This document shows, piece after piece, positions 6,350 to 55,860 of a DNA stretch of 57,530 nt (position 1 is its first letter; each line of letters begins with the position of its first letter). A program made the translations under genes and the position numbers. The notes under the pieces are model-generated. The model did not search any database and was not told the origin of the DNA. It worked only from the letters and a program-made list of their open reading frames with translations. This DNA comes from Clostridia bacterium (lineage in GTDB: Bacteria; Bacillota; Clostridia; Christensenellales; Aristaeellaceae). The stretch lies in NCBI GenBank assembly GCA_017395685.1, contig JAFQOD010000005.1, positions 1-57,530 of the forward strand, written 5' to 3'.

Positions 6350-8257
6350 ATGCGCAACATCGCCATTTTTGCCCATGTGGATGCGGGCAAGACCACCCTC
6401 AGCGAGCAATTGCTCTCCCATGCCGGGGCCATCCGGGTGCGGGGGGCGGTGGATCAGGGAACGGCCCATACCGACCGGCTGCCGGTGGAAAGGCGGCGGG
6501 GCATTTCGGTGCAGTCCTCCTGCGCTACCCTGTGCTGGAAGGGGGAGGAGATCCACCTGATCGATACCCCCGGCCACAGCGATTTTGCCGCTGAGGTGGA
6601 GCGTGCCCTGTGGGCGCCGGATGGAGCCATCCTGGTGATCAGCGCCGCCGAAGGGGTGCAGCCCCAGACGGAGGTGCTCTTTGATGCGCTGAAGGCCGCC
6701 CGGATCCCCACCCTGCTGTTCATCAATAAAATGGACCGGGAGGGGGCGGATGCAGAACGCGCCCTTTCTGAATTCAGGGAAATTCTTTCCCCCAATGCCG
6801 CCTTCCTCACCGATGCCGAAGATATGATGGCTCTGGTCGCCGAAAGCAGCGATCAGGCAGCGGAGGATTATCTGTGCGGCGAAATTTATGATCAGGAAAA
6901 ATTATATCCCCTGCTTCGCAGCGCCATGCAGGAAATGCAGGCCTTCCCCGCCCTGACGGGATCCGCCCTTCGGGATCAGGGGGTGCCGCAGCTGCTGGAC
7001 GCCATTCTGGATCTGCTGCCTGCCCCGGCAGGGAAGGAGGAGGATCCCCTCTGCGCCATCTGCTATGCCGCCAGCCAGGATCCTCTGCTTGGTCGTGGGG
7101 TGCATGTGCGGATTTTTTCCGGCACTCTTCAGAATCGGGATGCCCTCACCCTTTCCGGCGTCCAGCGGAAGATCACCCAGATCCGCCTGTGGACGGCGGA
7201 TGGCCGGGGCCAGGATACGGGCAGGCTTTCCGCCGGGCAGATCGGGGTGCTTTATGGCCTTTCGGATGTGAAGGTGGGCACGGTGCTGGGGGATGAAAGC
7301 TATCTGCCCCGGCCCATGGCGCTGGGCGCCCTCAGGGAGCCGCTGCTCTCCGTCCGGGTCACGCCCCTGGACCGGGCCCGGGATCATGAATGCCGGAAGG
7401 CTCTGATGGAGCTGGCGGGGGAGGATCCCCTGCTTTCCGTTTCCTACAGTGAGGAAACCAAAGAAACCACCCTCAGGGCCATGGGCAAAATGCAATTGGA
7501 AATCCTGGAGGAGATGCTGCGCACCCGCTTTTCCCTGCCCTGCCAGTTTACCCAGCCCCAGCTGATTTACCGGGAAACCATCGCCGCCCCCTCCGAGGGA
7601 TTTGTGGCCTATACCATGCCAAAGCCCTGCTGGGCCATCATCAATCTGTATATCGAGCCCCTGCCCCGGGGATCGGGGGTGCAGTTTCAATCCACGGTGG
7701 CCCCCCGGGATATCGCCCTTCGGTATCAGCATCAGGTGGAAAATGCCCTGCCCCTGGCCCTGCGCCAGGGCATGAAGGGCTGGCAGGTGACGGATGTGAA
7801 GGTGACGCTGACAGGCGGCAATCATCACGAAATTCATACCCATCCCCTGGATTTTGTGGTGGCCACCCCCATGGCCATGATGGATGGGCTGAGAAGGGGA
7901 GGCACAAAGCTATTGGAGCCGGTGCTGCAGGCCCATATCTGGGCGCCGGAGGCCCTTTCCGGCCGGATCATCAGCGATATCAATCAGATGCGGGGCCAGG
8001 TAGAGGAAACGGTGAACGGCCGGGGTATGATGCGCATCAGGGCCATCCTTCCTGCTGCCACCTCCCTATCCTATTCCGAAACCCTTTTGCAATTGACCAG
8101 CGGCCGGGGAGGCATGAATGTGAAGCTGATGGGCTATCAGGACGCCCCTGCCGATGTGCAGGCGGAAATGCCCCGCCGGGGGGTCAATCCCCTGGATACC
8201 GCCAAGTATATTCTGGCCGCCCGCAGCGCCCTGGAAGGCGAAATTTTTGATCGGTAA
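6350..8257 (+). CDS. TetM-like translational GTPase (EF-G family)
   Basis: A 635-residue GTPase built like the ribosomal protection proteins Tet(M)/Tet(O) (about 639 residues). G1 AHVDAGKT is at residues 8-15, G2 RRRGISVQS near 47-55, G3 DTPGHSDF near 73-80 and G4 NKMD near 126-129; EF-G domains II, III, IV and V follow. In Tet(M), loop III of domain IV carries YSPVST, which dislodges tetracycline; here the equivalent stretch (about 490-503) reads HHEIHTHPLDF. Resistance is therefore doubtful and a paralogous ribosome factor more likely. The gene has a short leader and is followed after 12 bases by an unknown gene. Confidence 0.85.
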   Translation: MRNIAIFAHVDAGKTTLSEQLLSHAGAIRVRGAVDQGTAHTDRLPVERRRGISVQSSCATLCWKGEEIHLIDTPGHSDFAAEVERALWAPDGAILVISAAEGVQPQTEVLFDALKAARIPTLLFINKMDREGADAERALSEFREILSPNAAFLTDAEDMMALVAESSDQAAEDYLCGEIYDQEKLYPLLRSAMQEMQAFPALTGSALRDQGVPQLLDAILDLLPAPAGKEEDPLCAICYAASQDPLLGRGVHVRIFSGTLQNRDALTLSGVQRKITQIRLWTADGRGQDTGRLSAGQIGVLYGLSDVKVGTVLGDESYLPRPMALGALREPLLSVRVTPLDRARDHECRKALMELAGEDPLLSVSYSEETKETTLRAMGKMQLEILEEMLRTRFSLPCQFTQPQLIYRETIAAPSEGFVAYTMPKPCWAIINLYIEPLPRGSGVQFQSTVAPRDIALRYQHQVENALPLALRQGMKGWQVTDVKVTLTGGNHHEIHTHPLDFVVATPMAMMDGLRRGGTKLLEPVLQAHIWAPEALSGRIISDINQMRGQVEETVNGRGMMRIRAILPAATSLSYSETLLQLTSGRGGMNVKLMGYQDAPADVQAEMPRRGVNPLDTAKYILAARSALEGEIFDR

Positions 8258-46624: not shown

Positions 46625-47077
46625 ATGGAAAAGCAGCAGGATGAAATTTTCCTTCCTGTGGAAGGGAATGGGAAAAAGAATCTGGTGCAGTCGGCCAAGG
46701 ATTTTATGGCCGGTGCCCTTTCTCCCCTGAAGGGGAAGGATCTTTCCCAGATGGTGGAAGGCTTCACTTCTGAAATGACGCTGGTGGCGGAAGGCCTGAG
46801 CGAGGATCAGCTGCGCCTTCAGCAGCAGCAGGATCGGATGGACGGCCAGCTGACCGAGGCGGAGGCCCAATTGGCCCAGGCCCGGGAAGAAATCAGGGAA
46901 CTGCAAAAGCAGGTATCCGCCCTGGAAGACCGGCTTGCCAAGGCGGAAAAGGAAAAGAAGGAAAAGAAGCTGAAAAAGACGGAGGGGTTCACTGCCCTGA
47001 TCCGCCAGGCCACCTGGCTTGCGGCCATCATTGCCGGGGCCTGGGTGATCGTCACCATCATCAATTTATTCAAATAA
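46625..47077 (+). CDS. Coiled-coil protein with C-terminal membrane helix
   Basis: A 150-residue protein. Residues about 58-118 are a long coiled coil (QQQQDRMDGQLTEAEAQLAQ onward, ending in a Lys/Glu patch KEKKEKKLKK), followed by one hydrophobic helix (about 129-148). Probably tail-anchored in the membrane with the coil in the cytoplasm. Starts 3 bases after prs. No family recognised. Confidence 0.72.
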   Translation: MEKQQDEIFLPVEGNGKKNLVQSAKDFMAGALSPLKGKDLSQMVEGFTSEMTLVAEGLSEDQLRLQQQQDRMDGQLTEAEAQLAQAREEIRELQKQVSALEDRLAKAEKEKKEKKLKKTEGFTALIRQATWLAAIIAGAWVIVTIINLFK

Positions 47078-47082
47078 TCTGA

Positions 47083-47122
47083 GGGGCGCGGCATCCTGAC
47101 GGGGATGTGCGCCCTTTTTTCT
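47083..47122 (+). terminator. Terminator of prs and its coiled-coil neighbour
   Basis: GGGCGC...GCGCCC outer stem with an inner GCATCC/GGGATGT stem, then TTTTTTCTTT. Confidence 0.82.
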
Positions 47123-47139
47123 TTACAGGAGGATGAAAT

Positions 47140-47646
47140 ATGCCCACTTACGGGGAGCTTGTGCAAAAATATCAGAAGCGGCAGAAGGCCCATATTGCCG
47201 ACAGCGTGGCCGCCGGCCTTTCCTATGCGGATAATCTGGCGGTGGATCTGGGGCTGATGGAGGAAAGCGGGCTGATGGATGCAGTCAGCGGCGCCCTGCC
47301 CTTTGTCTGCATTGCGGTGACCGAGCAGATGAAGGTGATCCTGGGGAAAAAGACCCAGAAGGCGGGCATCAGCGATGGGGTGCAGCGAATGCTGAAAACC
47401 GGGGCGGCCATGAGCGTGGGGGCCATTGCCTCCGTGCTGGGCGGCCCGGCGGCGGCGGTGCCTGCGGCGGCAGGGGCCCGGCTGCTGATCAATCATTACA
47501 GAAGCAAGGCCATGCTTAATCTGCGCATCCAGGAGCGGACACAGCGGCTGCAGGCCCTCAGGCAGCGCCGGGATCAATTTTCTGCGGCTTCTGAGGAGGG
47601 CAGAATCGCCCTTCCTGCCGGGATGGAATGGATCGGGGAAGAATAA
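47140..47646 (+). CDS. Uncharacterised protein with Gly/Ala-rich hydrophobic segment
   Basis: A 168-residue protein. Residues about 88-116 are a Gly/Ala-rich hydrophobic hairpin (AAMSVGAIASVLGGPAAAVPAAAG), possibly membrane-inserted, and about 120-160 a basic amphipathic helix. It resembles proteins that associate peripherally with membranes (EcsC-like), but I cannot make a firm assignment. It has its own strong ribosome binding site (ACAGGAGGATGAAAT), begins just after a terminator and has no visible promoter of its own; readthrough is possible. Confidence 0.7.
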   Translation: MPTYGELVQKYQKRQKAHIADSVAAGLSYADNLAVDLGLMEESGLMDAVSGALPFVCIAVTEQMKVILGKKTQKAGISDGVQRMLKTGAAMSVGAIASVLGGPAAAVPAAAGARLLINHYRSKAMLNLRIQERTQRLQALRQRRDQFSAASEEGRIALPAGMEWIGEE

Positions 47647-47874: not shown

Positions 47875-47903
47875 TAGACATTATTTTTCGGATGCAGTAT
47901 AAT
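47875..47903 (+). promoter_or_regulatory. Sigma-A promoter of the eight-gene lipid operon
   Basis: TAGACA, 17-base spacer and TATAAT: 11 of 12 consensus positions. Predicted transcript start near 47910. The operon gene order and its terminator at 55837-55860 make this a single long transcript. Confidence 0.8.
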
Positions 47904-47948
47904 GTAATATGTATAGGTATCGCCAGGCAGGGGGGAAAACAGCGGGCA

Positions 47949-48485
47949 ATGCAGAAAAAACGGGATGCAAAAACCGGAAGAGGCCATCGGATCGCCCTGT
48001 GCGGCATGGCTATGGCCCTGTCGGCGGCAGTGATGCTGTTGGGCCATATCCTGAGCTTCGGGGAATATTTCTGGTATTTTGTGGCCGCGCTTTTTGTGGA
48101 TCTGCCCAAGAAAACGGGGGATAAGGGGCTGTGCTGCCTGGGATCGATCCTGCTTTCTTCCCTGGTATGCGGTTTCAATTATGTATATCTTGCCTCCTAT
48201 GCCCTGCTGATGGCCCCCTATCCGGTGGTAAAGGCCGCCCTTTCCCATCTGCCCAAGGCGCCCGGCTATTTGTTGACGGTGCTGTTCTGGTGGGCGGGGC
48301 TTTCCGGGATCATGTGGTTTACTCCCATGTTCTTTGTGCAGCTGAGCGCGGTGTCGAATGTGCAGGTGCGGCTGCTGGCGCTGCTGGGGCTTATGCTTCT
48401 CAGCCTGGGCATCGATCTGATTTATCGCCGGCTGCATGCCTTCGGCAAGCAAATTTTATCGAAAGTGATGTTTCGCCTGATATGA
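47949..48485 (+). CDS. Integral membrane protein opening the lipid operon
   Basis: A 178-residue protein with five or six hydrophobic helices separated by short charged loops and a basic N-terminus (MQKKRDAKTGRGHR). Layout resembles small substrate-binding membrane subunits (ECF S-type), but no signature can be fixed. The ATG chosen has an AGGGGGG site at a slightly long distance; an ATG at 47892 lies before the transcript start. Its stop overlaps the adenylating enzyme start (ATGA), so its function should be tied to the pathway. Confidence 0.7.
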   Translation: MQKKRDAKTGRGHRIALCGMAMALSAAVMLLGHILSFGEYFWYFVAALFVDLPKKTGDKGLCCLGSILLSSLVCGFNYVYLASYALLMAPYPVVKAALSHLPKAPGYLLTVLFWWAGLSGIMWFTPMFFVQLSAVSNVQVRLLALLGLMLLSLGIDLIYRRLHAFGKQILSKVMFRLI

Positions 48486-50398
48486 AATTCTATGAAAAGA
48501 TCCTGCAGGAATTAAGAAATGAAGAGCATAGCTTTCGGACCATTTATCGCTATGCCTTCAGCTTTGGGGATCATGTGTATTTTGAGCAGAGCAAAAATCT
48601 GCTGATTGAAAAGATCACCTATGCCCAGGCCCGTCAGGAGGTGCTGCGGCTGACGGCGGTGCTGCAGGAAAAGGCGGCCCCCGGCCAGGTGATTGCCCTT
48701 TCCATGCCAAACAGCCCTTTGTGGGTGGAATGCTTCTGGGCCATCCTGCAGTCGGGCTGCAAGGCGCTGCTGCTTTCCCCCCAGCTGCCCTGGCGGGTGA
48801 TGGAAAAGTGCCTTCAGGATACCGGCTGCCGTCTGCTGCTGGGGGATATTGAGGGCTGCACCATTCCTGCGGTCGGGGCAAAGGAGCTTGCCTCCGCCCG
48901 GCCCGCCCATCCCCTTGCGGATGACCGTAAGGAGGGCTGGGGGGATGAAGTGATCCTGGCCACCTCCAGCACCACCGGCGCCCCCAAATTATATGCCTTT
49001 GACGGAAAGGCCATCTGCGCCCAGATCCTCAACAGCGAATTTGTGCTGAAAAACTGCAGGGATGTGGCCCGTTTCCATCATGGGGTGATCCGGCAGCTGG
49101 CATTTTTGCCCTTTTCCCATATTTTCGGGCTGACGGCCTGTTTCCTGTGGTTTACCATGTTCGGCATCACTTTTGTATTTCTTAAGGATCTGCAGCCTGA
49201 AACCATCCTGCGCACCTGCCGGCTGCATCAGGTGACCCATGTTTTCGCTGTTCCCCTTTTGTGGGATACCATGAATAACCGCATCCGCAAGGCCATCGCC
49301 GATAAGGGGATGACCGAAAAGGCGGAAAAAATGATGAAATTGAGCCTGAAGCTGCAGGATTTCTGGCCCGCTCTGGGCAGAGGCTTTGCGGCGCTGGCCT
49401 TCTCCTCCGTCCGCAAGCAGACCCTGGGTGGCAGCATCAGCTACTGCATCAGCGGCGGCGGCATGCTTTCCAGGGAAACGCTGCCCCTGATCAATGCCAT
49501 CGGCTATCCCCTGGAAAATGGCTATGGCATGACGGAAATCGGCATTGCCTGCGTTACCGTCCGCAAGCCCTCCAGACGCCATGGGGTGGCGGTTGGCAAG
49601 CCCCTGCCCAGCCTTTCCTTTAACCTGGATGAAAAGAAACAGCTGCTGGTGAAGGGAAAATCCTGCTACTGCGCCCGGTATACCGATGGAAAGCGTATTC
49701 CCCGGGAGGAGGATACCTGGTTTGAAACCGGCGATCTGTTCCATCTGGAGGAAACGGGGGATTATGCCTGCATCAGCCGGATGGATGATCTGGTGAACGG
49801 CGCCAATGGGGAACGGATCAGCCCCGACGCCGTTGAAAATGAAATGGCCCTGCCCCTGGAACACTGTGTATTCGGCCAGGGTGATGGAACGCTTGCGCTG
49901 ATGATCCGCCTTCCCGAGCAGTGCACCGTGCTGGAATCCGCCTGGGATAAGGCCATGGCCCAGGTGCAGGCCGCCATTGACGGGCTGCCCCCCTATATGC
50001 GGCCCCGCAGCATTTATCTTTCCCGCCAGGCGCTGCCCCTTTCCCTCAGCGGAAAGATCCGCAGAAAGGCCATCCGGGAGGGGGTTGCGGCAGGTACCTA
50101 TCCCTGCGATCTGATCAATGGCATGAAGCGGCCCGCCGCCGTGGCGGAAGGGGCAGGGGATGAGGCGCTGCTGCGGCAGCTGCAGGAAATGTTTGCCCGG
50201 CATGCCCGCTGCCAGGCTCCGGCCCAGCCGGACAGCCACTTTTTCACCGATCTGGGGGGCGACAGCATGGCCTTCCTGGAACTGATCACGGAGATTGAAA
50301 CCCGGTATACCATCAAGATTACAGACGCCATTTCCTCCGGCATGACCACTCCCCGGGCGGCTTGCGCTCAGGTAATTGCCAGCCTGGAACACCTTTAA
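48482..50398 (+). CDS. Acyl-adenylating enzyme fused to a carrier-protein domain
   Basis: A 638-residue ANL-superfamily ligase. The P-loop is ATSSTTGAPKLYAF near 160-175 (TSSTTGAPK, with Ser for the usual Gly), then NGYGMTEIG near 340, ETGDLFHLEE near 419 and the adenylation Lys in LSLSGKIRRKAI near 526. Residues about 560-638 are an acyl carrier domain with DLGGDSMAFLEL; Ser595 is the expected phosphopantetheine site. It would activate a carboxylic acid, probably a fatty acid, and load it onto its own carrier. Translationally coupled to the upstream membrane gene. Confidence 0.9.
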   Translation: MKFYEKILQELRNEEHSFRTIYRYAFSFGDHVYFEQSKNLLIEKITYAQARQEVLRLTAVLQEKAAPGQVIALSMPNSPLWVECFWAILQSGCKALLLSPQLPWRVMEKCLQDTGCRLLLGDIEGCTIPAVGAKELASARPAHPLADDRKEGWGDEVILATSSTTGAPKLYAFDGKAICAQILNSEFVLKNCRDVARFHHGVIRQLAFLPFSHIFGLTACFLWFTMFGITFVFLKDLQPETILRTCRLHQVTHVFAVPLLWDTMNNRIRKAIADKGMTEKAEKMMKLSLKLQDFWPALGRGFAALAFSSVRKQTLGGSISYCISGGGMLSRETLPLINAIGYPLENGYGMTEIGIACVTVRKPSRRHGVAVGKPLPSLSFNLDEKKQLLVKGKSCYCARYTDGKRIPREEDTWFETGDLFHLEETGDYACISRMDDLVNGANGERISPDAVENEMALPLEHCVFGQGDGTLALMIRLPEQCTVLESAWDKAMAQVQAAIDGLPPYMRPRSIYLSRQALPLSLSGKIRRKAIREGVAAGTYPCDLINGMKRPAAVAEGAGDEALLRQLQEMFARHARCQAPAQPDSHFFTDLGGDSMAFLELITEIETRYTIKITDAISSGMTTPRAACAQVIASLEHL

Positions 50399-50416
50399 AG
50401 AGAGGAAGCAGGAAAT

Positions 50417-51691
50417 TTGAAGCGCTTTTTTCGCCATTTTTTCGTATATTTCGTCAAGATCACCGGTTATCTGCCCATGTGGCTCTTTTTGAAGCCCCAT
50501 ATTTATTATGAGCATGCGCATTCCCCCAAGATCAAAGGGGGCGAAATCGCTGTAGCCAATCATACGAAAATGCTGGATTATGCGCTGATGCTGTTCGTAT
50601 ATAAAATGCGGATGGTGCGGGTGCTGATGGCGGAGGTGCTGTTCAGAAAGCCGCTGCTTGCCTGGTTCCTGCGCAGGATGCAGGGCATCCGGGTGGACCG
50701 GGATAACCATACCACTGTGGATTATATGGATATCGCCTGGCAGACCCTGAGGGATCAGGATGTGGTGGGCGTATTCCCGGAGGGCCGGCTCAATAAAGAG
50801 GGCCGGCATTACGGATCGATGCTTCCCTTCCAGAAAGGAGCAGTACGCCTTTCCATGGTGACAGGGGCCCCCATCCGGCCCATGTATTTCCATAATAACG
50901 GCGGGGTATTCAAATCCTCCGCCATTCTGGTGGGCGATCCCATCGATATGCAGGCTCTCTTTGGGGAGGATCCCACCCCTGAAGCGCTGGAAAAAGCCAA
51001 TCGGTATCTGGTGCGGAAAATGGAAGCGCTCAGGGATGATCTGAAGCTGCGGGATCAGCATAAGGAGCATTCCCTCCAGTCCCGGTTCATCCGCTGGAGC
51101 ATGCGCTGGTGCATGAAGCTGGGCTTTGGGGTCCAGTATCATTATACGGATGAAAGCATGCAGGGAAGAAAGCTGCATCAGAATGTGATCATCGTCAGCA
51201 ATCATCGCTATTTTCTGGATCCGCCCATGATCTGCACCCTGTTCCCCAAGGAAAAAATCCATATCCTGGCCGGGGAAGTGCTTTATGAGAATAAATGGCT
51301 GGCCCGGCTGCTGAACAGGCTGGGCTGCATCAAGGTGGATCGCACCCGGCTGGATATGGATTCCTTCCGCGCCATTTCGGATGTGCTGAAAAAGAAGCGC
51401 AGCGTGGGCATTTTCCCCGAAGGCGCCCTGTTCCGGGATGGGGAAATCCATCCCTTCAAATCCAGCTTCGTGCTGGCGGCCATCAATGGGGATGTGCCGG
51501 TGCTGCCCGTCTGCATGGCGGGGGAATATAGATTATTCCGCAAAAAGCTGCATGTATGGATTGATACCCCCATGCAGATGAAAACGGACAGCCTGACGGT
51601 GGAAAGCATCGAAAAGCAGGCCCTGCAGGTGGAAAAACGGATGAAATACCTGAAAGCGCAAATGGAAGGCGAGATGAAACGGCATGGATAA
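50417..51691 (+). CDS. Tandem two-domain PlsC-type acyltransferase
   Basis: A 424-residue protein with two LPLAT/PlsC domains in series. Domain 1 has NHTKMLD (48-54) and FPEGRLN (120-126); domain 2 has NHRYFLD (262-268) and FPEGALF (333-339). Both keep the HxxxxD catalytic pair and the phosphate-binding FPEG. Single-domain PlsC acylates lysophosphatidate; a double form could add two chains or act on an unusual acceptor. TTG start behind AGAGGAAGCAGGAAA. Its stop overlaps the next gene by 8 bases. Confidence 0.88.
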   Translation: MKRFFRHFFVYFVKITGYLPMWLFLKPHIYYEHAHSPKIKGGEIAVANHTKMLDYALMLFVYKMRMVRVLMAEVLFRKPLLAWFLRRMQGIRVDRDNHTTVDYMDIAWQTLRDQDVVGVFPEGRLNKEGRHYGSMLPFQKGAVRLSMVTGAPIRPMYFHNNGGVFKSSAILVGDPIDMQALFGEDPTPEALEKANRYLVRKMEALRDDLKLRDQHKEHSLQSRFIRWSMRWCMKLGFGVQYHYTDESMQGRKLHQNVIIVSNHRYFLDPPMICTLFPKEKIHILAGEVLYENKWLARLLNRLGCIKVDRTRLDMDSFRAISDVLKKKRSVGIFPEGALFRDGEIHPFKSSFVLAAINGDVPVLPVCMAGEYRLFRKKLHVWIDTPMQMKTDSLTVESIEKQALQVEKRMKYLKAQMEGEMKRHG

Positions 51692-53135
51692 GCAGTATTT
51701 CTTTGATATTCTCTCCCCGGAGGAAAGGGCCAGGATCCGCCGGCTGTATACCCTGCCGGAGCTGGAGCAGCTCTGCCTTTCCGAATATGCCGATCTGCCC
51801 GCCCTGGAGCTGCCGGGCAAGCAGATCAGCTACCGGGCCATGTGGCACAGGGTAGCCTGCCTGCGGACGGGGCTGAAGGCCGCCGGGCTGAAAAAGGGCG
51901 CCCTGATCGGCATTTCCCTGCCGCCCATGGTGGATGCGGTGGAATGCTTCCTGGCGGTGGTGACGGCAGGCGGTATTGCGGCCATGCTGCCCACCGGGGA
52001 TTCCGGGCAGGTGCTATCCCGTCCCTGCCAGCTTTTGCAGCCTGATTTTCTGATCACCCATCTGCCGGATGCCCCGGTGAAAGCCTATACCCCCGATTCC
52101 CTGCGGGGGGATGTGCCCTCCCCTGCGGAAAAGGCGGATCCTGCTGATCCTGCCGCCGCCTTCTTTACCGGCGGCACCAGCGGCGTGCCCAAGAGCGCCC
52201 TGCTCTCCCACCGGGCCATGATGCTGGGCAGCTATAACGGCCTGCTGGCCCCGGGCGGCGTATTTTTCCAGCGGTATTATGCCCTGATGCCCCTGACCCA
52301 TGTGTTCGGCATCATCCGCAATACCCTTTCCTGCTTCCAGAGCGGCTCCACTTTGTGCATGTGCACCGGCATGATGAACCTGACCAGCGATCTGCAGGCC
52401 TATCGGCCCACGCTGCTGGTGCTGGTGCCGGCGCTGACGGAAATGCTGCTGGGGCTGATGAAGGCCTACGGCCCCGGGGTGGCCGGGGGCCAGGTGAAGC
52501 TCATCATCGTGGGCAGCGCCCCCATCCGCTCCAGCGTGGCGGAGGAACTGAACCAATTCGGCATTACCCTGTGCGCCGGCTATGGCCTGACGGAATCGGC
52601 CAATCTGGTATCGGGCAATGCGGATCAATTGACCCATCCCCATTCCGTTGGCAAGCCCTATCCCGATCAGGAAATTCGTTTTGTGGATGGGGAAATCCAA
52701 TTGAAGGGCGAGCATATTTTTGATGGTTATATCAATAACCCTGAGGAAACGGCGGCCTCCTTCCAGGATGGATGGTTCCGCACCGGCGATCTTGGGTATA
52801 TGGATGAGGATGGCTTCCTCTACATCACCGGCCGGATCAAGAGCCTGCTGATTTTACCCAACGGGGAAAAGATTTCCCCGGAAGAGCCGGAACTGCTGAT
52901 CAATGAGCTGCGGGAAGTGAAGGCCTGCGTGGTGCGGATGGCGGAAAACCGCTTCGGCGCCAAGGTGATAACCTGCGAGGTATTCCCCGTGCCCGGCACA
53001 GATGAGAAGCTGCTTACGGAAAAAATCCTGACCGATATCAATGCCCAGCTGCCCGGGAGCATCCGCATTCAGCAGGTGCTTTTCCGGCATGAGGATTTTA
53101 AGCGCACCCCTGCCATGAAGATCGTGAGGGAATGA
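51684..53135 (+). CDS. Second acyl-adenylating enzyme (stand-alone)
   Basis: A 483-residue ANL ligase without a carrier domain. P-loop TGGTSGVPK is at 162-170, AGYGLTESAN near 298, RTGDLGYMDEDGF near 368 and the C-terminal Lys479 in KRTPAMKIVRE. It probably loads the free carrier protein encoded immediately after it (ATGA overlap). Shorter than the upstream ligase because it lacks its C-terminal carrier. Substrate cannot be told; hydrophobic acyl pockets are not resolvable by eye. Confidence 0.9.
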   Translation: MDKQYFFDILSPEERARIRRLYTLPELEQLCLSEYADLPALELPGKQISYRAMWHRVACLRTGLKAAGLKKGALIGISLPPMVDAVECFLAVVTAGGIAAMLPTGDSGQVLSRPCQLLQPDFLITHLPDAPVKAYTPDSLRGDVPSPAEKADPADPAAAFFTGGTSGVPKSALLSHRAMMLGSYNGLLAPGGVFFQRYYALMPLTHVFGIIRNTLSCFQSGSTLCMCTGMMNLTSDLQAYRPTLLVLVPALTEMLLGLMKAYGPGVAGGQVKLIIVGSAPIRSSVAEELNQFGITLCAGYGLTESANLVSGNADQLTHPHSVGKPYPDQEIRFVDGEIQLKGEHIFDGYINNPEETAASFQDGWFRTGDLGYMDEDGFLYITGRIKSLLILPNGEKISPEEPELLINELREVKACVVRMAENRFGAKVITCEVFPVPGTDEKLLTEKILTDINAQLPGSIRIQQVLFRHEDFKRTPAMKIVRE

Positions 53136-53392
53136 AAATGGAACGAAAAGAAATGATCGCCGCACTGGCCGAACTGCTTTGCCGCCTGCGGCCCGAACTG
53201 CAATTGAATGAGGAAAATCTGCATGAGGGCATTCATCTGCAGAATGATCTGGCCATCAATTCGGTGACGCTGCTGATGCTGGCCCTCAGCGTGGAAAAGA
53301 AATTCGATATCCGCTTTGAATCGGTGGGCCCCGCCCAATTACAGACCCTGGGCGACGTATGCGATTATATTGAAACGAGGCTGGGCAAATGA
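53132..53392 (+). CDS. Acyl carrier protein
   Basis: An 86-residue helical carrier. The phosphopantetheine site is Ser44 in NDLAINSVTLLML; the Asp that normally precedes it (DSL) is Asn, and Val follows instead of Leu, so holo-ACP synthase recognition may differ. Helix II and the acidic surface are otherwise ordinary. Overlaps both the ligase before it and the LRAT gene after it by four bases (ATGA). It is likely a dedicated carrier, not the general fatty-acid ACP. Confidence 0.88.
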   Translation: MKMERKEMIAALAELLCRLRPELQLNEENLHEGIHLQNDLAINSVTLLMLALSVEKKFDIRFESVGPAQLQTLGDVCDYIETRLGK

Positions 53393-53799
53393 AGGGGCAG
53401 GAGCGATGGGATGTGCATCCCCTGAAGCCGGGGGATCATATCCGGGTGAAATATCAGAATTTTTATCATCACGGCCTGTATGAAGGGGATGGCATGGTGA
53501 TCCATTTCGCCGGCCCTGATATGCGCCAGCTGCTGGAGCCGGAAGTGGTGCAGGTGCGCCGGGATTCCCTGGATACCTTCAGCATGGACAGGCATATCGA
53601 GGTGCGCTGCTATTCCCTGCGGGAAAGGCTGCAGCGGCGTCCGGTGGAGAAAATCCTTTCCGCCGCCCGGAAAAGCCTGGGGGAAAAGGGATATGATATC
53701 CTGTATAATAACTGCGAGCATTTTGTCAATCGCTGCGTGTTCGGCAAGGCCTTCAGCAGCCAGATCGATGAAATGCGGAAAATGATCCCGGAGGATTGA
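53389..53799 (+). CDS. LRAT/PLAAT-fold cysteine acyltransferase
   Basis: A 136-residue LRAT-domain protein of the NlpC/P60 superfamily. GDHIRVKYQNFYHHGLY begins the fold with His28, VIHF supplies His39 and NNCEHFVNRCVFGK carries Cys109, giving the Cys-His-His set of lecithin:retinol and phospholipid:amine acyltransferases. Known relatives move a fatty acyl chain from phosphatidylcholine-like donors to retinol or to the amine of phosphatidylethanolamine. No membrane anchor is visible. Its place between a carrier protein and acyltransferases supports an acyl-transfer role. Confidence 0.85.
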   Translation: MKGQERWDVHPLKPGDHIRVKYQNFYHHGLYEGDGMVIHFAGPDMRQLLEPEVVQVRRDSLDTFSMDRHIEVRCYSLRERLQRRPVEKILSAARKSLGEKGYDILYNNCEHFVNRCVFGKAFSSQIDEMRKMIPED

Positions 53800-53859
53800 C
53801 AAAGGAATCGGCGGCCGCCTTTATGGCCGTATCGATAAAGCAAAAGAGGGGTTGAAATC

Positions 53860-55227
53860 ATGAGAAAACTGACGAAGGGAAAATTGTTTATCTATGCCAT
53901 GTCCGGCCTGGGGCCCAATCTGCTGATGACGCTGGTGACCGGCTATCTCAATGACGCCCTGCTGGCCCCCACCGGTATTGACCCGGCCAAGACCTTTACC
54001 GGCTCCGTGATCGTATCGGTGGCGCTGTGCAGCGTGCTTTTCTTTGCTGCCAAGGTGATCGACGCTTTCATTGATGTGCCCCTGGCTTACCTGAGCGATA
54101 AGATGCATTGCAAAATGGGCCGCCGGAAGGCCAGCATCCTGATGGGCTGGGTGCCCATGGTGATTTCCTTCCTGCTGCTGTGGGCGCCGAAGCTGTATAT
54201 GGGCGCCGGCGCTACCGGTATCACCTGGATTCAGGCCATTTTGCTGGTGATCTTCTATTCCTCCTATACCCTCACCCTGGTGGCCTATTACGGATCTTAT
54301 TCCGCCATCACCAAGGATGAACAGGATCTTTCCTCCCTCACCCATTACAAGGCATTCTTTGATACCATTCAGTATTGCGTATCCTATGCCCTGTTCCCCT
54401 CCCTGCTGCTGGGCATCCTGGGCGGGCGTGAGGCCGGCGCCATTTCCAAGGCGCTGCTGATGCTGGCCCCCATGATGCTGACCATGCTGATCCCCATGTT
54501 CATGATCAAGGATGAGGATAAGGAAGAGGAAGCGGAAAAGAAGGAGCGGAATGTGTCTCTGATGGAAAGCATCCGGGCGTCCGCCTCCTCCCGGCCCTTC
54601 CGCCGCTGGCTGGGTACCCAGTTTCTGATCCATGTATCCCTGATGCTGTTCCTCACCGGGATCGGCACCACCATTCCCGATAATCTGGTGGGCATCAAGG
54701 GCTGGCAGGTAACGATCATGAATTCCGCCGCCTTTGCCCCCGTTCCCCTGATGCTTCTGATCTTTAACGGCTTCAAAAAGCGCAAGGGCCATCGCTTTGC
54801 CCTGCAGACGGCGCTGATCGCCTTTGCTGTGGCCATGTTCATTTTTGCCTCCGGCTGGAAGCAGCTGTGGCAGTCCATGCCCATGATCAGCTTCATTATC
54901 GGCCTGATCGCTTCCACCATCGGCAGCTACAGCGTGGGCGTATTCTTCTCCATCAGCTATTTCTATCCTGCCCATATCGCCACCGAGGAAATGAAGGTGA
55001 CGGGCAAGGATAACGCGGCCATGTATTTCGCCATCCAGGGGTTGGTGACCCAGCTGGCCTCCGCCGTGGGCGTCAATCTGATTTATATCAACCTGGTGGG
55101 CAATGAAATCTCCATTGCCGGCATGCAGGGCGGTCAGTTCGTGCTGGTGCCCATCATTGCAGGCGTTGTGATGCTGGCGGCCTTCTTTGTGGCCTTTGGC
55201 ATCAAGCGGAATATCATTAAAGAATAA
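53860..55227 (+). CDS. MFS_2/GPH-family transporter
   Basis: A 455-residue protein with about 12 membrane helices of the glycoside-pentoside-hexuronide:cation (MFS_2) type: the loop DVPLAYLSDKMHCKMGRRK after helix 2 is the family's basic motif. A long charged loop (DEDKEEEAEKKE, about 218-230) separates the halves. In animals the same family includes MFSD2A, a lysolipid transporter, so a lipid substrate is plausible in this operon, although most bacterial members carry sugars. A 60-base gap with a GGCGGCCGCC palindrome precedes it. Ribosome binding site AGAGGGG. Confidence 0.88.
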   Translation: MRKLTKGKLFIYAMSGLGPNLLMTLVTGYLNDALLAPTGIDPAKTFTGSVIVSVALCSVLFFAAKVIDAFIDVPLAYLSDKMHCKMGRRKASILMGWVPMVISFLLLWAPKLYMGAGATGITWIQAILLVIFYSSYTLTLVAYYGSYSAITKDEQDLSSLTHYKAFFDTIQYCVSYALFPSLLLGILGGREAGAISKALLMLAPMMLTMLIPMFMIKDEDKEEEAEKKERNVSLMESIRASASSRPFRRWLGTQFLIHVSLMLFLTGIGTTIPDNLVGIKGWQVTIMNSAAFAPVPLMLLIFNGFKKRKGHRFALQTALIAFAVAMFIFASGWKQLWQSMPMISFIIGLIASTIGSYSVGVFFSISYFYPAHIATEEMKVTGKDNAAMYFAIQGLVTQLASAVGVNLIYINLVGNEISIAGMQGGQFVLVPIIAGVVMLAAFFVAFGIKRNIIKE

Positions 55228-55814
55228 TGTCCATGTTTCTGCAGCGGTTTGTGGATTTTACCGCCCATATCCCTTTGCGCCTGAGCTATTTTCTGCGCAT
55301 TCAGGGAAAGAAAAATCTGCCCGAGGGCAATTATATCCTGGTGGCCAATCATGGAAGCCTGATGGATCCGGTGCTGATGCATATTACTCTGCCCAGCAAG
55401 TATATTTCCTTTCTCACCTCTCCCAAGCTGTTTGATTGCCCCCGCTTTTGCCAGGCATTCCTCCGGAAAATGGGGGCCATTCCTGTAACCGATGGGGTGC
55501 GGGAACTGGTGGAGCTGAAAAAGCAGGCAGAGGAAAGGCGGCCCCATCGCCTGATCTGCATGTTTTCCCAGGGCACAATTTCCAATGAACCTACGGATTT
55601 CAAGCCTGGGGCGGCCATTCTGGCCCTGCAGACGGGATTGCCCATGGTGCCGGTGTATCTGCACTGCGCTCCCTTTTTCCGGGGGGGCAGCCGCATCTGC
55701 TTTGGAAAGCCCCTTCCGGTTGAAAAGCAGCCGGGGCTGGATAAAAAAACGGTAATGGCCCTGACACGGGAAATCCAGGAAAGGGTATATGCCCTGGAAA
55801 AAAAGAAGAGATGA
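55227..55814 (+). CDS. Single-domain PlsC-type acyltransferase
   Basis: A 195-residue LPLAT protein. The catalytic pair is NHGSLMD (41-47, HxxxxD intact). In place of FPEGTRS it has FSQGTIS (near 114), a notable change in the phosphate-binding motif: Pro to Ser and Glu to Gln. Acceptor specificity may therefore be unusual. Its start shares one base with the transporter stop (TAATG). Last gene of the operon. Confidence 0.85.
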   Translation: MSMFLQRFVDFTAHIPLRLSYFLRIQGKKNLPEGNYILVANHGSLMDPVLMHITLPSKYISFLTSPKLFDCPRFCQAFLRKMGAIPVTDGVRELVELKKQAEERRPHRLICMFSQGTISNEPTDFKPGAAILALQTGLPMVPVYLHCAPFFRGGSRICFGKPLPVEKQPGLDKKTVMALTREIQERVYALEKKKR

Positions 55815-55836
55815 AAAAATCATCATCCGCTGCCAT

Positions 55837-55860
55837 GACCGCCTTCGGGCGGTCTTTTTG
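55837..55860 (+). terminator. Terminator of the lipid operon
   Basis: GACCGCC-TTCG-GGCGGTC with a UUCG tetraloop and TTTTT. Confidence 0.9.

Follow-up and report, generated by a model that had tools for sequence, protein, structure and literature searches.

The DNA analysed here, contig JAFQOD010000005.1 of the Clostridia bacterium assembly GCA_017395685.1 (positions 1 to 57,530; the whole stretch of 57,530 nt is referred to as the window), contains an eight-gene operon composed of predicted ligase, carrier, acyltransferase and transport genes. According to the list of open reading frames (ORFs) of the window, the eight ORFs are all located on the + strand and span positions 47949 (or 47892) to 55814. 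The following features were distinguished:

47875..47903, + strand: promoter-like site TAGACA-17-TATAAT (consensus match alone, 11/12 positions)
47949..48485, + strand: small helical membrane protein, 178 aa (relatives in loci L024 and L140)
48482..50398, + strand: AMP-forming ligase fused to a carrier domain (Ser595), 638 aa (PF00501 + PF00550)
50417..51691, + strand: tandem PlsC-type acyltransferase, TTG start, 424 aa (two Acyltransferase stretches in Pfam; TIGR00530 above cut-off)
51684..53135, + strand: second AMP-forming ligase, 483 aa (Pfam AMP-binding)
53132..53392, + strand: free acyl carrier protein (ACP), 86 aa, with Ser44 in the unusual context AINSV (Pfam PP-binding)
53389..53799, + strand: PLAAT/LRAT-fold enzyme, 136 aa, with His27, His39 and Cys109 (Pfam LRAT, predicted fold)
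53860..55227, + strand: MFS_2 transporter, 455 aa (Pfam MFS_2)
55227..55814, + strand: single PlsC-type acyltransferase, 195 aa (Pfam Acyltransferase)
55837..55854, + strand: intrinsic-terminator-like hairpin with a TTCG loop and a T run (sequence)

The original prediction had proposed an eight-gene operon of these families, and Pfam confirmed all of them except for the first gene, which has no match. The domains detected along the other genes are AMP-binding + PP-binding, tandem Acyltransferase, AMP-binding, PP-binding, LRAT (E = 3.4e-24), MFS_2 (E = 4.4e-34) and Acyltransferase; in relatives, the tandem PlsC is often represented by two separate genes. The distances at consecutive gene junctions are -4, +18, -8, -4, -4, +60 and -1 bases, i.e. 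overlaps of 1-8 bases join the genes at 5 of the 7 junctions, as had been claimed for most of them. The proposed UUCG terminator was found as the hairpin listed above, and both carrier serines are as originally given, with Ser595 of the fusion counted from ATG 48482 (the Pfam scan of this protein was run from 48494, on 634 aa). The claim of a near-consensus promoter stood in part: the site is present, but sites of this class occur in the window at a frequency near chance (9 found vs 7.5 expected), and the -10 box falls within the extension of the first ORF, which opens at ATG 47892. Because the -10 box is located 3' of this ATG, ATG 47949 is the more probable start of the first gene, and the membrane protein of relative L024 starts at the residue matching that codon. 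Searches with Pfam and NCBIfam profiles gave no match for the membrane protein of the window, and its structure model is of low confidence (pLDDT 61, from 3 sequences). The tRNA and Rfam scans of the whole window gave no match.

The genes of the operon constitute a co-inherited set, conserved in uncultured gut bacteria. A query alignment of 12 LRAT proteins (that of the window and 11 from searched genomes, including G043, whose LRAT gene has no cluster) was used in a scan of one genome per species (GTDB 220), which confirmed 241 LRAT relatives; the locus counts given below rest on the 80 best-scoring of these, ranked by LRAT similarity, with ORFs called mechanically. The record titles of all 80 loci indicate metagenome-assembled or uncultured organisms, and many of them name rumen or gut samples. 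A free ACP gene is placed directly upstream of the LRAT gene (at -60 to +200 bases) in 73 of the 80 loci, with a 4-base overlap in 44. On the same strand and within 10 kb of the LRAT gene, an ACP domain was found in 77/80 loci and a ligase domain in 76/80 (both counts include fused domains), PlsC in 74/80, a ligase-ACP fusion in 68/80 and an MFS gene in 29/80; 8 of the 12 loci without the ligase-ACP fusion have less than 4.3 kb of upstream sequence. Most often the genes are arranged as ligase-ACP, PlsC, PlsC, ligase, ACP, LRAT, with the MFS gene in second position at some loci. In an order-wide sample of 396 genomes, LRAT was detected (E <= 1e-10) in 16, including that of the window, and 14 of the other 15 possess such neighbours (the exception is G043).

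As a control, a PF04970 search of 398 genomes of the phylum identified 20 LRAT genomes, including that of the window. Among the 27 LRAT loci of the 19 other genomes, with 3.3-3.5 kb examined, none has an ACP neighbour, and a ligase was found near one, on the opposite strand. Moreover, pairwise protein distances are correlated between LRAT and ligase (0.84; 59 loci), LRAT and ligase-ACP (0.86; 62 loci), ligase and ligase-ACP (0.91; 46 loci), and LRAT and ACP (0.76; 78 loci); the observed value was reached in 0/1000 permutations in each case, and part of each correlation is owed to common species ancestry. Since the neighbours are conserved in relatives and absent from the control loci, and since the distances correlate, the grouping exceeds chance. 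The original prediction had named relatives lacking the neighbours as a sign of chance grouping; 3 of the 80 loci have no carrier, ligase or PlsC, and the others retain at least some of these genes.

The LRAT protein of the window matches PF04970 with 85.9 bits (curated cut-off 24.3) and is predicted to share the fold of human PLAATs, its closest solved relatives being the phospholipases A1/A2 PLAAT2/3/4. Most of what is known of PLAAT enzymes comes from animals, in which they synthesise or degrade phospholipids and form N-acyl-ethanolamine precursors; the animal enzymes have a C-terminal membrane anchor. No C-terminal transmembrane helix was detected in the window protein by simple hydropathy. 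The permuted His...Cys active site (His27 and Cys109) is present in 94/94 aligned LRATs, a set which comprises the window protein and also takes in three loci without the cluster. The third catalytic position (His39 in the window) is occupied by Q in 64, A in 17, H in 7, E in 5 and S in 1 of the 94, whereas H is found in 24 of the 27 controls. In a tree built from few columns, with 4 identical rows dropped and SH-aLRT as the sole support measure, 87 of the 90 relatives' rows are placed on one side of a control-free branch (SH-aLRT 84); L017 (a long branch), L059 and L093 lie outside this group, and L060, which lacks the neighbours, lies inside it.

In 33 of the 80 loci, the LRAT protein runs on into a phosphopantetheinyl transferase (PPTase) domain, which in L100 matches PF01648 with 37.1 bits (cut-off 25). 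Five fused PPTases of one clade (L045, L072, L083, L088 and L096) lack the GVD and W..KE motifs, and because of this their PPTase domain may be non-catalytic. L060 also encodes an LRAT-PPTase fusion (6816-7199), and neither a carrier nor a ligase nor a PlsC gene occurs on that strand within 10 kb of it.

The carriers of the relatives have a distinctive phosphopantetheinylation site. In the free ACPs the serine is kept in all 94 proteins, and the residue preceding it is N, S, T or Q, and not D, in 89/94; in the fused carriers, D precedes the serine in 11/77 (domains below 15 bits were dropped, and some contigs, i.e. L003/L007/L026 and L004/L008, were counted repeatedly). The ACP adjoining the ANL ligase is other than the housekeeping one (10 ACP models scored 21.0-35.4 bits and did not reach their cut-offs of 66-146). 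Ligase residues were counted by alignment, because motif patterns missed most of the P-loops: the C-terminal catalytic Lys is aligned in 61/64 ligase-ACP proteins (window included) and 60/61 free ligases, and the P-loop Lys of the free ligases is kept in 60/61. For both PlsC proteins, the matches to PRK08633 and PRK06814 (acyl-[ACP]-phospholipid acyltransferase) lie far below cut-off (PRK08633 best score 109.4 bits vs cut-off 1221), the second ligase also matches PRK06814 far below cut-off, and the tandem PlsC has a weak match, again far below cut-off, to OlsF and a lyso-ornithine-lipid acyltransferase model.

The gene content around this core varies. The membrane protein occurs, among the examined loci, in the near relatives L024 and L140 alone, and a PlsC gene following the MFS gene in L024 and L025 alone, while the clusters of other lineages carry extra FakA/DegV-like genes, hydrolases and PPTase, none of which is present in the window operon; the original notion of a self-contained pathway is therefore not upheld. 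Among the 58 relatives' loci with at least 5.5 kb of downstream sequence, both DegV and FakA-like genes are present in 32 and an alpha/beta hydrolase in 37. The FakA and DegV copies of L100 score below the FakA and FakB1 equivalog cut-offs and above those of YloV and DegV. Eight of the 16 searched LRAT genomes have a FakA-like gene within 6 kb of LRAT (in G392 on the opposite strand), and all eight have another FakA-like gene elsewhere. Further observations include (i) an additional ligase-ACP gene between LRAT and MFS in the nearest relatives L024 (6528-8438), L025 and L026, where the window has the 60-base gap; (ii) a small protein family, zinc-ribbon-like by eye, of which a member is encoded close to the cluster and on its strand in 38 loci (e.g., L091, 16342-16764); (iii) a frame in L137 (G055:C40, ~7300-7850) which resembles the window membrane protein by eye, is broken by a stop codon and adjoins a ligase-ACP gene on the opposite strand; and (iv) two ORFs upstream of the window operon (46625-47646) without a Pfam match over cut-off, one coiled-coil-like with a hydrophobic C-terminal end by eye and the other of 168 aa.

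We tentatively interpret the operon, at slightly less than an even chance, as a dedicated acyl-ACP lipid-acylation module, which would place fatty acids onto private carriers and pass them, via PlsC and the PLAAT-fold enzyme, into a membrane lipid. The carrier-bound acyl lipid pathway originally proposed fits every part and is thus right in outline, with its product unproven. The two ANL ligases would adenylate free fatty acids, exogenous or lipid-released, and these would be loaded onto the two private carriers (the fused domain and the free ACP). The PlsC-type enzymes, in which the acyltransferase domain is present, would then pass acyl chains from the carriers to a glycerol(phospho)lipid as the presumed acceptor. 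The PLAAT-fold Cys/His enzyme, probably cytosolic, may accept an acyl group from the adjacent holo-ACP, its likely donor, as a Cys-thioester and hand it to a lipid hydroxyl or amine. In about two fifths of the relatives the fused PPTase domain would arm the ACP, and the transporter and the membrane protein may move a precursor or the product. Private carrier and private ligase together could insulate the acyl supply from housekeeping fatty-acid synthesis, as may AasR/AcpR.

A more far-reaching proposal, which we regard as doubtful, is that the bacterial PLAAT-fold clade changed its donor from phospholipid to a private ACP, i.e. became an acyl-ACP:lipid acyltransferase tied to carrier and PPTase. 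Uncultured Clostridia and Bacilli from the guts of herbivores and other hosts would use it to make an as yet undescribed membrane lipid, perhaps with an N- or O-linked acyl group. If true, this ACP-locked clade would illustrate how the fold handles a soluble thioester donor, and would be a sign that gut bacteria make a lipid still to be characterised; concrete testable predictions follow from the LRAT-PPTase fusion and from the unusual site of the ACP.

Several results weigh against the interpretation as a lipid-acylation module. Three loci (L059, L060 and L093) have no ACP, ligase or PlsC near LRAT, and the window LRAT itself is without a PPTase fusion. The absence of an anchor is not specific to the clade, as hydropathy revealed none in 78/81 relatives' proteins nor in 26/27 controls. 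Of the 38 PPTase ORFs, 28 match each of two motif patterns (10 miss each), and 31 have an aligned Asp at the GVD motif; among the ligase-ACP proteins, only 55/64 retain the P-loop Lys. The ligases match many ANL families, ranging over fatty-acid, oxalate, malonate and succinylbenzoate ligases and nonribosomal peptide synthetases (NRPS), with none above cut-off among the 25 matches listed for each, and the original assignment of fatty acids as their substrate is accordingly unproven. The MFS_2 protein has four NCBIfam matches at E <= 0.001 (GPH, MelB, YagG and glucuronide transporter; all below cut-off), with no LplT model among them; as its named matches are GPH sugar symporters / MelB, the lysolipid carrying first suggested for it has no support and was rejected. 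The window operon is also devoid of FakA/DegV genes, and the sole FakA-like match of its genome is on another contig.

The distribution within the genus points in the same direction. A sample of 28 same-genus genomes (completeness 65-96%) yielded no LRAT, and the module is therefore patchy and probably dispensable. A match to the ligase-ACP protein is present in 27/28 of these genomes; the translated ones, from G011 and from the genome of the window (G000), are ligase-ACP-AONS fusions, which agrees with patchiness of the window's module in the genus. These fusions (~1,100 aa) are encoded on the - strand, in G000 at 3258-6710 of L134 (contig C42), preceded by a 3-ketodihydrosphingosine reductase-like gene (6610-7431, - strand), and in G011 at 5919-9191 of L135. 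Their AONS part is BioF / serine-palmitoyltransferase-like. The fusion and its reductase-like neighbour suggest sphingoid-base synthesis. The aminotransferase located 3' of the operon has a match in 23/31 genomes, including the window's own. None of the 24 other fetched aminotransferase stretches (flanks up to ~1.5 kb, shorter at contig ends) contains the operon or its left-hand neighbours, and one, L190, contains a weak ligase match; no clean empty insertion site was thus shown.

The strongest rival explanation, given that PLAATs act as phospholipases A and that free fatty acids are what FakA/FakB deal with, is a bacterial Lands cycle, in which the PLAAT-fold enzyme (or the relatives' hydrolases) would serve as a phospholipase A for phospholipids, either imported or the cell's own, the ligases would reload the released acids onto ACP, and PlsC would return them for chain exchange or repair, as in LplT-Aas, its precedent in E. 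coli (PMC8926400, in part). The solved phospholipase relatives of the LRAT protein, the PRK08633 and PRK06814 matches, all far below cut-off, and the FakA/DegV-like and alpha/beta-hydrolase neighbours, which suggest free acids or esters, are all consistent with such a cycle. We nevertheless consider it unlikely, because the transporter is GPH/MelB-like and not of LplT type, the window LRAT has no membrane anchor, and the adjoining ACP gene and frequent PPTase fusion are left unexplained. Less probable still is a secreted or signalling N-acyl lipid (N-acyl-phospholipid, N-acyl amino acid or ornithine-lipid-like aminolipid), N-acylated by the PLAAT-fold protein, O-acylated by PlsC and exported by the MFS protein. 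HRASLS/PLAAT enzymes have O- and N-acyltransferase activity, according to the part of PMC7387801 consulted, and the weak OlsF-type match of the tandem PlsC (far below cut-off) and the NRPS-like ligase-carrier layout would fit; yet no amine-headgroup gene was seen among the recurrent neighbours, and the N-acylated phospholipid originally suggested as product is unproven, no acceptor gene having been found for it.

It is improbable that the PLAAT-fold protein is an editing thioesterase which frees the dedicated ACP and forms, with PPTase, a carrier-maintenance unit, all productive transfer being left to PlsC. The PPTase fusion, the ACP adjacency and the altered third catalytic residue of the relatives (H in 7/94 vs 24/27 controls) speak for this role, but the window LRAT retains the His, and we know of no precedent for an LRAT fold as ACP thioesterase. 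Participation in sphingolipid (ceramide) synthesis is very unlikely. The ligase-ACP-AONS fusion on contig C42 beside the reductase-like gene (best NCBIfam match, 210 bits vs cut-off 400) speaks for it, but the AONS domain of this fusion was matched in 7/16 LRAT genomes, with a frame above 1,000 aa in G000 and G032 alone; the remaining matches have identities of 29-36% and lie in frames of 397-448 aa, and the domain scores best for BioF, below cut-off as well. As a general reading it was rejected, since ligase-ACP-AONS does not generally co-occur in the 16 LRAT genomes. Chance grouping, to which the lack of LRAT in the 28 same-genus genomes might have pointed, has a negligible probability, being refuted by the conserved order, the distance correlation and the negative control.

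All parts of the lipid-acylation module proposed here thus come from known families, and what appears new within the literature searched is their combination, and most notably the PLAAT-like clade with its ties to ACP and its fusion to PPTase. No paper linking LRAT/PLAAT with ACP or PPTase was found in the open-licence literature searched, the scope in which "undescribed" holds; in the consulted part of PMC10318531, LRAT/PLAAT and ACP/PPTase terms occur in separate places. Compared with the PLAAT (HRASLS)/LRAT enzymes of the permuted NlpC/P60 superfamily, the proteins described here are bacterial, tied to an ACP gene and often to PPTase, with no anchor found in the window protein; the third active-site position usually holds Gln or Ala in the relatives, and His in the window. 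Papain-like proteins in acyl transfer have precedents in LnsA (PMC7387801) and in BtrH, which acts from an ACP (PMC10318531), as far as the excerpts of these papers show. LnsA/LnsB, responsible for lipoprotein N-acylation in S. aureus, likewise involves a bacterial NlpC/P60-superfamily protein with permuted relatives, required for acyl transfer; LnsA differs in having a predicted signal peptide, and no ACP partner is mentioned in that part of the source (PMC7387801). The FakA-like + DegV genes of many relatives' clusters resemble the FakA/FakB fatty acid kinase, which is absent from the window operon.

LplT-Aas of E. coli displays a ligase-ACP-PlsC logic, according to parts of PMC8926400 and PMC6167442, and shares with the window an ANL ligase, PlsC and an MFS protein around acyl-ACP. 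The window operon differs in its separate genes, two ligases, two private carriers, extra PLAAT-fold enzyme and lack of an LplT-type transporter, and neither a PlsC-ligase fusion nor an Aas equivalog match above cut-off was found in it. In Rhodobacteria, AasR/AcpR, a private acyl-ACP synthetase and carrier accompanied by serine palmitoyltransferase (SPT), may channel free fatty acids towards a single lipid pathway (PMC9386255, in part). The end users here would be PlsC and the PLAAT-fold protein, not SPT, with a ligase-ACP-AONS fusion encoded elsewhere in the window genome. By analogy, AasR/AcpR is the closest functional precedent, as in both cases a private synthetase and a private ACP would supply a single lipid pathway.

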